This document shows positions 5,514 to 19,950 of a DNA stretch of 37,168 nucleotides, in pieces (positions within the stretch are counted from its first letter, which is position 1; every line of letters starts with the position of its first letter). The DNA is from a bacterium (lineage in GTDB: Bacteria; UBA10199; JAIBAG01): assembly GCA_019695305.1 (NCBI GenBank), contig JAIBAG010000021.1, positions 1-37,168 on the forward strand. The letters are read 5' to 3'. The notes below the pieces were generated by a model. That model was not told the origin of the DNA. It made no database searches and saw only the letters and a program-made list of their open reading frames with translations. The position numbers were made by a program, and so were the translations under genes.

Positions 5514-5545
5514 AAAAACTCCTTTTTTAATTAACCTCCGGGCGG

Positions 5546-5636
5546 GTAACCCCCTCCCGTCCTCCCCCTTAATTTAAGTGGGAGGGGCTAAGAACGTACC
5601 CTCCCTTAAATTAAGGGAGGGACAGGGTGGGTTACT
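5546..5636. repeat. C/G-rich palindromic repeat, copy R1 (inside the fad operon)
   Basis: The sequence runs from GTAACCCCCTCCC to GGTGGGTTAC, so its two ends are imperfect inverted copies. Inside are two stem-loops: CCCCCTTAATTTAAGTGGG and a perfect palindrome CCCTCCCTTAA/TTAAGGGAGGG (5600-5622). The same motifs recur at 6945-6990, 7044-7098 and 7472-7614. It lies between fadA and fadN and touches the fadA stop codon, so it is transcribed as a long hairpin in the operon mRNA. Function unknown; it may affect the fadA:fadN ratio or be a mobile repeat. Confidence 0.85.
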
Positions 5637-6795
5637 AATTCAATCTTTCAATGATGGTAGCAAGACCCTGTCCACCGCCAATACACATCGACTCAAGGCC
5701 GAAGGTTTTGTTGTAACCGATAAGATCGGCTACTAAGGTAGACATGATGCGGGCACCGGTGCATCCTAAAGGATGGCCTAAAGCAATGGCGCCACCTTTG
5801 GGGTTGATGCGAGGATCGTTAAAATCAAGTCCCAGCATTTTAGCAACACTCATGGTTTGCACGGCAAAGGCTTCGTTAAATTCAAAAATGTCGATGTCTT
5901 TTAAAGAGAGGCCAGCACGTTTTAAAGCTTTGGGTACGGCATAAGCAGGGCCTTCGCCCATCACTTCGGGGCCGCAACCGGCAACAGCCATCGATTTAAT
6001 TTTGGCCAAGGGTTTAATGCCCAATTCTTTAGCTTTATCGGCACTCATCAATACAACAGCAGCAGCACCGTCTGTTAAAGGTGACGAGTTACCAGCAGTA
6101 ACCGATCCACCTTCTTTAAAAGCGGGCTTTAATTGACCTAATTTTTCAAGGTCGGGCTGACGTGGGCCTTCATCAATATTGGTGGTGGTTGTGGTGCCAT
6201 CCTGTTTGGTGATGGTTACAGGAACGATTTCGGTAAAGAGACCTTCCTTCATGGCTTTTAAAGCTTTAATGTGCGAGTTAAAAGCGTATTGATCTTGTTC
6301 TTTGCGACCAATTCCATGTTTAGCAGCCAAATTTTCGGCGGTGATACCCATGGAGATGTAAGCCTGGGGAGCGCCGTCTTTCATCAATTTAGGATTTAAA
6401 GAAGGATTGAAACCACCCATAGGAACGTGGGTCATTGATTCGGCACCGGCAGCAACAATCACATCACCGTTTCCAGCCATGATGTTAAGTGCTGCGGTGT
6501 TGATGGCTTCAAGCGAGCTGGCACAGAAACGGTTTACGGTAACGGCGCCAACGGAGAGAGGGAGGTCGGCCAGGAAGCTCACGTTACGAGCCAAGTTCAT
6601 GCCTTGTTCGCCTTCGGGCATGGCGCAACCGAGAACTAAATCTTCAATGAGTTTGGGGTCCAAGTTTTTAACCTGGGCTACGGCCTTTTTTACCACTTCA
6701 CCGGCTAAATCGTCGATGCGGGTCCAAACATACTGACCCTTAATGGCACGGCCCATGGGGGAACGAACAGCTGATACAATAACTACGTCACGCAT
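5635..6795 (-). CDS. fadA: Acetyl-CoA C-acyltransferase (3-ketoacyl-CoA thiolase)
   Basis: At 386 residues this is a full-length thiolase, which cleaves 3-ketoacyl-CoA to acetyl-CoA and a shortened acyl-CoA in the last step of beta-oxidation. Visible catalytic residues are the acyl-accepting Cys91 in [10 protein letters not shown], the His of [10 protein letters not shown] (about 341) and the Cys of CIGGGQG (about 371). The start is supported by AAGGAG 5 bases upstream. It is the first gene of a fadA-fadN operon, as in Bacillus fadNA but with gene order swapped. A promoter overlapped on its downstream side by an inverted-repeat operator precedes it. Biosynthetic acetoacetyl-CoA thiolase is possible, but the partner gene favours degradation. 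Confidence 0.93.
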
Positions 6796-6944: not shown

Positions 6945-6990
6945 GTCCCCCTCCCTTAGATTAAGGGAGGGGAAAGGGGGTGGGTTACTC
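6945..6990. repeat. C/G-rich palindromic repeat, half-copy R2
   Basis: It contains CCCCCTCCCTTA/TTAAGGGAGGGG as a hairpin followed by GGGGGTGGGTTACTCTT. The terminal GTTACTCTT is the inverse of the AAGAGTAAC that opens copy R3 at about 7044, so R2 and R3 face each other across 54 bp of AT-rich DNA. It forms the left edge of the block around the DUF559 gene. Confidence 0.8.
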
Positions 6991-7043
6991 TTTTATTTTG
7001 AGTTGTTTTTTCTTGCGTAGTGAACGGGTTGCCACGTAATTTT

Positions 7044-7098
7044 TAAGAGTAACCCCCTCCCGTCCTCCCCCTTACTCTAAGGGGGAGGGGCGTGGGTT
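7044..7098. repeat. C/G-rich palindromic repeat, half-copy R3
   Basis: It opens with AAGAGTAACCCCCTCCC and contains the hairpin CCTCCCCCTTA/TAAGGGGGAGG. The opening is identical to that of copy R4 (7472), so these two copies lie in the same orientation at either side of the DUF559 gene. It ends 25 bases before that gene's start codon. Confidence 0.8.
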
Positions 7099-7123
7099 TT
7101 AAGCAAGGGGTAACAAGAATTTT

Positions 7124-7549
7124 ATGTTTTTTTATAACAATTTAAAGATGAAACAAAGGCGTCGAGCTTTAAGAAAAAGCATGACCATCCATGAAAGAAT
7201 CTTATGGTCTAAGCTAAAGAATGGTCAAATTGAGCGCTTAAGATTTTTCAGGCAATATAGTGTAGGTGCTTATGTTTTGGATTTTTACTGTCCTAAATTG
7301 CGCTTATGTGTGGAACTGGATGGGTCACAGCATTTGCAAGAAGACAATATTAAGTACGATCAGGCTAGGACTGATTATTTAAATTCACGTTGCATTCGAG
7401 TGATGAGATTTTTTAATAGTGATGTGAATATTAATCTTGATGGAATCCTGGAAGAAATTTATCAGATGATGAAGAGTAACCCCCTCCCGGGAGAGGTAAC
7501 CCACCCCTTTCCCCTCCCTCCTCGAAGTGGCCCCTGTGGGGTAATCTAA
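7124..7549 (+). CDS. DUF559 (Vsr-like, PD-(D/E)XK fold) endonuclease-domain protein
   Basis: The 141-residue protein has the DUF559 layout: basic N-terminus with RRALRKSMTIHE and LWSKLKN (residues 12-33), FRQYSVGAYVLDFYCP (42-57), then VELDGSQH (63-70) and a closing CIRVMRFFNSDV (90-101). D53, E64 and D66 are candidate metal-binding residues of the restriction-endonuclease-like fold. DUF559 is distantly related to Vsr mismatch endonuclease; no substrate is established. The domain ends near residue 116. Residues 117-141 (K117 is codon AAG at 7472) are encoded by repeat copy R4 and form a Pro-rich tail unlike the domain. The gene is enclosed by repeats R2/R3 and R4. A second possible start is Met9 at 7148; neither has a convincing ribosome site. 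Confidence 0.88.
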   Translation: MFFYNNLKMKQRRRALRKSMTIHERILWSKLKNGQIERLRFFRQYSVGAYVLDFYCPKLRLCVELDGSQHLQEDNIKYDQARTDYLNSRCIRVMRFFNSDVNINLDGILEEIYQMMKSNPLPGEVTHPFPLPPRSGPCGVI

Positions 7550-7614
7550 GGGAGGGGGACGTCTCTAGTTCCTCCCACTTAAATTAAGGGGGAGGTCAGG
7601 AGGGGGTTACTCTT
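7472..7614. repeat. C/G-rich palindromic repeat, full copy R4 with perfect terminal inverted repeats
   Basis: The 143-bp copy starts AAGAGTAACCCCCTCC (7472-7487) and ends GGAGGGGGTTACTCTT (7599-7614), perfect 16-base inverted ends. Inside are further C-rich and G-rich segments (7501-7520 and 7549-7559) and a small GGCCCCTGTGGGG hairpin. It supplies the last 25 codons and stop of the DUF559 gene and ends 7 bases before the start codon of the PIF1-like helicase, leaving that gene without a visible Shine-Dalgarno sequence. Confidence 0.88.
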
Positions 7615-19791: not shown

Positions 19792-19950
19792 TTTCAAAAG
19801 CTAGGGTCCTTTTATTTTTTTATGTTTATGGAGTCCGTTCATTAGATTACGGCCTCACAAGTTCACATAAAAGGGCTCCTTTCTGTTAGGGTGAGGCCTT
19901 AGAAGTGGGACCACGCACACAAAAAAATAAAAGGACCCTAGCTTTTGAAA
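19792..19950. repeat. 159-bp element with perfect 30-bp inverted arms
   Basis: Bases 19792-19821 and 19921-19950 are exact reverse complements over 30 positions, beginning TTTCAAAAGCTAGGG and ending CCCTAGCTTTTGAAA. The 99-base interior has its own pairing: GGCCTCAC (19851-19858) with GTGAGGCC, and AAAGG-GCT-CCTTT. As RNA it would form one very long hairpin with a structured head. It lies between rplY and pth and no protein is encoded. It could be a MITE-like element, a strong bidirectional terminator (arms contain A and T runs), or a structured RNA. Confidence 0.9.

Follow-up and report, generated by a model that had tools for sequence, protein, structure and literature searches.

The DUF559 gene in the window, as we call the whole 37,168-nt stretch of DNA analysed here, together with the repeats on either side of it, is best read as a DUF559 cassette: a selfish element made of one nuclease gene of the PD-(D/E)XK (Vsr / EDxHD-homing-type) kind, whose product acts on the cognate repeats that bracket it. 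We put the probability of this reading at roughly 0.68, with cleavage and mobilisation of the repeats being inferred. Other parts were observed: the bracket is general across phyla, the repeat type goes with the nuclease clade, gene-less pairs of the repeat are dispersed in the presence of a matching nuclease, and whole cassettes ending at their hairpins occupy several loci of one genome. The earlier note had proposed that a DUF559 nuclease could play a part comparable to that of RAYT transposases at REP palindromes. The proposal is supported as an association, by flanks, enrichment, and abundance, and remains an inference as to cleavage or mobilisation of the palindrome.

The window gene is intact. 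Its open reading frame matches PF04480 at full length (residues 8-116; 111.1 bits against a curated cut-off of 20.6), and, as first noticed from the letters alone, it is a single DUF559 gene flanked by R2/R3 and R4, with a further copy, R1, nearby (Table 1). R1 is probably a non-autonomous form. Codon 117 begins at the first base of R4 and the Pfam domain stops at residue 116, the edge of the repeat, which agrees with the claim that the gene ends inside R4 from its first base. The claims that R3 and R4 open alike and that R4 has perfect terminal inverted repeats held as well, the first 18 bases of R3 (from 7045) and R4 (from 7472) being identical and the 16-bp termini of R4 reading AAGAGTAACCCCCTCC / GGAGGGGGTTACTCTT. 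The description of the repeat as a C/G-rich palindrome needs amending: such a palindrome is present, but the C-rich run is not the whole motif, which combines a hairpin with a mirror-symmetric third block (scores of 0.8 for R3 and 7571-7614, and 0.7 for R2).

Table 1. Features of the window locus and the second DUF559 gene of the host genome.
Feature	Position	Strand	Remarks
DUF559 (PF04480) nuclease gene, 141 aa, clade 'YSVGxYILDFYCP'	7124..7549	+	Profile match E 3e-32
Final 25 codons of the gene plus its stop, within R4	7472..7549	+	
R1, two back-to-back units without a gene	5542..5639	.	Tail-hairpin 5546-5592, hairpin-tail 5599-5636
R2, hairpin CCCCTCCCTTAGATTAAGGGAGGGG and G-rich tail ending GTTACTCTT, tail toward gene	6945..6992	.	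Left inverted partner of 7496-7560
R3, AAGAGTAACCCCCTCCC tail and hairpin CCTCCCCCTTACTCTAAGGGGGAGG, tail away from gene	7045..7092	.	Inverted partner of 7571-7614
R4, made up of two back-to-back units	7472..7614	.	16-bp terminal inverted repeats, perfect
R4 first unit (tail-hairpin), inverted partner of R2	7496..7560	.	22 bp interruption at 7520-7541
R4 second unit (hairpin-tail), inverted partner of R3	7571..7614	.	Mirror third block 0.8
Only other DUF559 gene of the host genome (G000)	C17:32102-32413		Flanked on both sides by inverted copies of another, related palindrome

The units pair across the gene, R2 being complementary to 7542-7560 at 19 of 19 nt, and R3 pairing in inverted orientation with 7571-7614 at 87% over 52 nt. 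R2 and R3 are oriented toward each other. Elsewhere, the order is usually hairpin-tail-gene-tail-hairpin, which R2 and 7496-7560 obey, whereas R3 faces the opposite way; the window locus is thus nested or rearranged. Single-stranded R1 and R4 folded far better than shuffled sequences (z = -5.0 and -4.1, respectively), and no Rfam family matched the stretch. Elsewhere in the window, positions 19792-19950 hold a MITE-like element with a 34-nt inverted repeat, 97% complementary, around 91 nt, of which one weaker copy was seen (G000:C1:25981-26105).

Within the host genome (2.78 Mb in 58 contigs, 95.6% complete), the R4 stretch gave 49 BLAST matches, and the clade-specific hairpin pattern, of the TTAnnnTAA type, occurred at 27 sites and its reversed control at none; the window repeats are thus not due to chance. 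The flank of the second DUF559 gene consists of CCTCCCCTTTGTAAGGGGAGG and a tail that ends in GTAGTTCTT; the mirror image, AAGAACTACC...CTTACAAAG, lies on the opposite side. The window gene belongs to clade A, with the TTAnnnTAA repeats, and the second gene to clade B, with TTTGTAAG repeats (24 sites). Since each gene has a different palindrome with its own genome-wide sites, two nucleases of two clades and two repeat families coexist in one genome.

Both the profile and an AlphaFold model of the window protein (pLDDT 86.8) matched NGO0050 of Neisseria gonorrhoeae first (3hrl; itself a DUF559 protein, E 1e-35 to the profile), then the homing endonuclease I-Bth0305I, and then PvuRts1I and Vsr. 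The I-Bth0305I match (3r3p; E 6e-5, TM 0.66) satisfies the criterion of a catalytic fold homologous to that of EDxHD homing endonucleases. Among 28 relatives, residues E17, D46, E57, D59, and H63 do not vary (alignment numbering, which starts at residue 8 of the reading frame and equals its numbering minus 7). No Y1_Tnp match was obtained for the window protein, whose fold is PD-(D/E)XK Vsr-like, and its PADLOC and PHROGs matches were weak and pointed only to nuclease relatives. EDxHD homing endonucleases and Vsr, the closest solved folds after NGO0050, share with DUF559 the acidic and histidine active-site pattern, and are likewise encoded by mobile nuclease genes. Vsr works with Dcm methylation; homing enzymes are not, to our knowledge, bracketed by a family of palindromic repeats, nor do they multiply one. 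The earlier statement that DUF559 lacks an established activity was nearly right, the exceptions being the solved structure of NGO0050 and Caulobacter VsrA (CCNA_02930), a DUF559 protein that triggers the SOS response when cells are without the methylase ScmA (PMC12907096).

Three loci from Nitrospira and Binatia (L057, L058, and L090) encode a type I restriction DNA-specificity domain (Methylase_S) behind DUF559, an arrangement that fits sequence-specific targeting; these fusions are bracketed by a distinct longer repeat of ~60 bp, CTCCCCCCTTGAGGGGGAGTCGGCAAG...GGTGGGGGG. In a member of the Gastranaerophilales (L114), a single frame lying between palindromes encodes a GHMP kinase N-terminal domain in addition to two DUF559 domains.

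The generality of the bracket was evaluated at loci picked by protein alone, in 46 genomes belonging to the phylum and at 80 named loci in GTDB (Pseudomonadota, Chloroflexota, Nitrospirota, Omnitrophota, Elusimicrobia, Verrucomicrobia, Binatia, and others), both DUF559 genes of the host genome being included in the figures. The named loci came from a narrow profile, which biases them toward IGPYIVDF-type proteins. When inverted matches between left and right flanks were scored at a threshold of at least 14, 72% of 105 DUF559 loci had one, compared with 1.3% of 154 other ORFs at the same loci; flanks taken from different DUF559 loci and paired gave 19%. GC-rich hairpins lay on both sides of the gene at 68% of 116 DUF559 loci, versus 2.3% of 173 other ORFs. 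The negative control, HNH nuclease genes, showed no inverted matches between flanks (0/28), and the positive control, Y1_Tnp (RAYT-like) transposases, showed them at 15 of 18 genes. DUF559 genes therefore lie next to such repeats above chance, and the outcome that would have counted against the earlier proposal, DUF559 genes elsewhere without repeat flanks, did not materialise, though a clear double bracket is missing at ~30% of the loci. A typical flank consists of a hairpin, CCCTCTCCCCTTGAGGGAGAGGG, followed by TTAGGGTGAGGGTGA, with the tail inward on both sides of the gene. Among units with a recognisable tail, 108 pointed inward and 24 outward. The downstream unit reached the stop codon at 66 of 87 DUF559 loci, so the odd, repeat-encoded C-terminus of the window protein is the rule and not an accident.

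When loci were ordered by the DUF559 tree, hairpin loops fell in blocks. Genome-wide counts of four clade-specific patterns had medians of 9, 42, 12, and 26 in genomes with the cognate clade, 0, 0, 0, and 3.5 in genomes with another DUF559 clade, and 0 in genomes without DUF559; control patterns stayed near zero. Permutation of clade labels within genomes reached the observed fit in none of 20,000 trials. The patterns were derived from flanks in the same genomes, flanking copies were counted, and one pattern misses shorter stems. In one genome of the phylum (G032), the flanking loop, AGC/GCT, is also that of nearly all genomic copies among the matches listed. The number of repeats per genome, as counted from searches, followed the number of DUF559 genes (rho 0.66, p 5e-7), with a median of 28 matches in phylum genomes that have the gene and 2 in the 23 that do not. 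Repeat abundance is thus tied to the gene. Abundant repeats in genomes without DUF559, named beforehand as a refutation, were mostly not encountered; the exceptions are G036 and G042, in which 41-51 matches occur without a detectable DUF559 gene. These orphan repeats may reflect gene loss, incompleteness, or relics.

G032 contains six cassettes at different loci, which align exactly from the left hairpin to the right hairpin, with flanking DNA that mostly differs; three of the six carry internal deletions. Gene-less units recur as inverted pairs with a fixed spacing (~95-107 bp in G012, and ~48-67 bp in G005 and G009), as expected of internally deleted derivatives, and gene-less repeats are far more numerous than cassettes. 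An intergenic slot in Pseudomonas, which precedes a penicillin-binding-protein-like gene (L186-L192), is occupied in three species by a DUF559 cassette. A relative whose flanks are 88-91% identical has a 77-bp stretch with a GTAG REP instead, another species has a frameshifted RAYT remnant with its own REPs, and a further relative has an IS66-type insertion inside the DUF559 gene. The RAYT and IS66 identities rest on reading translations, and the remnant matches Y1_Tnp only below the curated cut-off. As the slot is filled by a cassette or a RAYT depending on the species, both types of unit can share a niche. The slot is merely consistent with homing, in which a gene-less allele would be cut and then receive a copy of the gene. 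Neither the G032 nor the Pseudomonas alignments revealed a clear target-site duplication, though the ends are visible in them. A recurring motif, TACCCACTCGnnnnCGCGAAGA, was considered as a target site and dropped, as it occurs at only 3 of 245 loci and not in the window. In two genera, some DUF559 cassettes (L034, L130, and L139 of G032; L012/L047 of G035) are nested in another inverted repeat, AAATTTTAAAAGTGGACT...AGTCCACTTTTAAATTT.

Palindromes of the box C type were already known from E. coli in the 1990s, and Hoyne and Maher reportedly described the G/C-rich intrastrand triplex motif, or box C / PIT elements, in 2000. A mirror copy of the 3' arm (score of at least 0.8) followed the hairpin in 58% of 191 flanking hairpins, versus 2% after shuffling, and the flanking units meet the box C/PIT criterion of a hairpin, a short spacer, a mirror-symmetric 3' arm as third block, and many copies. 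Most DUF559-flanking units are thus this triplex motif, inverted pairs included. The motif has been reported in >260 genomes, with 23 copies in K-12 and ~100 in N. gonorrhoeae, and Holder et al. described inverted pairs of its type A and type B (PMC4666352). The same work found no mobility gene beside box C repeats and makes no mention of a nuclease partner; most E. coli motifs were seen to stay at fixed loci, with deletions rather than gains (PMC4666352).

In K-12, the box C copy beside fabI is separated by ~170 bp from ycjD; this DUF559 gene itself extends at its 3' end into a half unit. Directly before ycjD, an inverted repeat unrelated to box C, CACCTCATTCTGACAA/TTGTCAGAATGAGGTG, was also observed (L040). 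E. coli was searched by record BLAST. ycjD was present in 3,366 of 5,426 genomes, and sampled strains with it had a median of 22 box C places (n=37) versus 6.5 in strains without it (n=22), a comparison confounded by phylogroup; strains lacking ycjD keep 2-23 box C places. The sapF-fabI interval was rejected as a clean empty site, since ycjD-less strains (L043, L044) hold an RND efflux operon and a TetR regulator there, next to fabI.

The arrangement resembles REP/RAYT systems (REPtrons, REPINs) in several respects: the gene of a DNA-cutting enzyme lies between inverted palindromes, enzymes and repeats form cognate pairs, gene-less copies are many and often paired, abundance follows the enzyme, and the repeat overlaps gene ends. 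Accordingly, DUF559 loci meet the RAYT/REP criteria of inverted flanking palindromes and of abundance correlated with the cognate gene. The window locus fails the criterion of a Y1/HUH tyrosine transposase: RAYT is a Y1 HUH transposase, whereas DUF559 is a PD-(D/E)XK hydrolase-type nuclease, for which we know of no strand-transfer activity. The DUF559 repeat also differs in having a third mirror block and no GTAG tag; a GTAG or CGTC at the foot of the palindrome is another RAYT/REP criterion, and neither was found in the flank readings of DUF559 loci. The RAYT/REP layout is likewise two inverted palindromes around a gene (PMC2817692). With the same layout and an unrelated enzyme, the DUF559 cassette works like that system without being a member of it.

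A cycle resembling homing can be envisaged for the cassette. The nuclease would recognise its own repeat, probably when this is extruded as a hairpin or triplex during replication, and would cut or nick it. Repair from a repeat-bearing template might then put a copy of the entire cassette, or of the repeat pair alone, at a new site, and gene-less pairs would be by-products of such copying. The repeats in turn provide the gene with a purine-rich stretch immediately ahead of the start codon, as well as with its C-terminus and stop codon.

The main rival, which we regard as unlikely, holds that something else spread the repeats and that DUF559 genes home into them or are captured by them; the nuclease would treat the cognate repeat as its landing site without amplifying gene-less copies. 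Kinship with homing endonucleases, the excess of gene-less copies over cassettes, the orphan repeats, and the G032 cassettes lying inside another inverted repeat all speak for it. However, abundance is specific to the clade and falls almost to zero where the cognate gene is missing, entire cassettes lie together with their repeats in G032 flanks that have no repeat, and relatives of the cassette-bearing Pseudomonas species have no such repeat in the slot. Recognition of the cognate repeat is required by both readings. Considerably less probable is that DUF559 is a repair or guardian nuclease that cuts hairpin or triplex DNA, the palindromes being hazards and selection keeping the gene nearby. 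The Vsr-like fold, the DNA damage context in which Caulobacter VsrA acts (PMC12907096), and the link of the triplex motif with instability (PMC4666352) agree with such a role, which does not, however, call for an inverted bracket of the substrate, a predominantly inward orientation, shared stop codons, or multiplication of cassettes. Less probable still is a RAYT/IS200-type or other transposase that moves the palindromes with DUF559 as a passenger, in spite of the RAYT/REP-like layout (PMC2817692) and the Pseudomonas slot occupied by either type of unit: the palindromes lack the GTAG tag, and a Y1 transposase as mobiliser was rejected, since Y1_Tnp counts do not follow the repeats (rho 0.10, p 0.52) and are nil in G005 and G043, which have 94 and 82 repeat matches. 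Coincidence, or ordinary terminators around a mobile gene, is refuted by the flank matching, the both-sided hairpin counts, and the HNH control, and also sits badly with dozens of copies per genome and with the absence of detected promoter or terminator activity in box C (PMC4666352), even though 24% of control ORFs have a downstream hairpin.

Returning to the cassette reading, we consider the odds to be slightly in favour of its wider form, in which DUF559 cassettes constitute a new class of mobile element, convergent with RAYT/REP: a solo homing-type PD-(D/E)XK nuclease, without a transposase, would read a hairpin or triplex repeat and spread both itself and gene-less repeats, and would be the unrecognised origin of box C and related repeats across hundreds of genomes. 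We found no earlier report of a link between DUF559 and palindromes in the literature on DUF559, PF04480, or COG2852 (subscription journals were outside the scope of the search). The results point to DUF559 as the enzyme that has long been missing as a partner for the widespread box C repeats. Such a link gives both orphans a partner, accounts for the odd repeat-encoded C-termini of DUF559 proteins, and makes the origin of box C repeats testable in E. coli K-12, with its ycjD and about 20 box C copies. If it is true, REP-like mobile palindromes also arose with an enzyme unrelated to RAYT.
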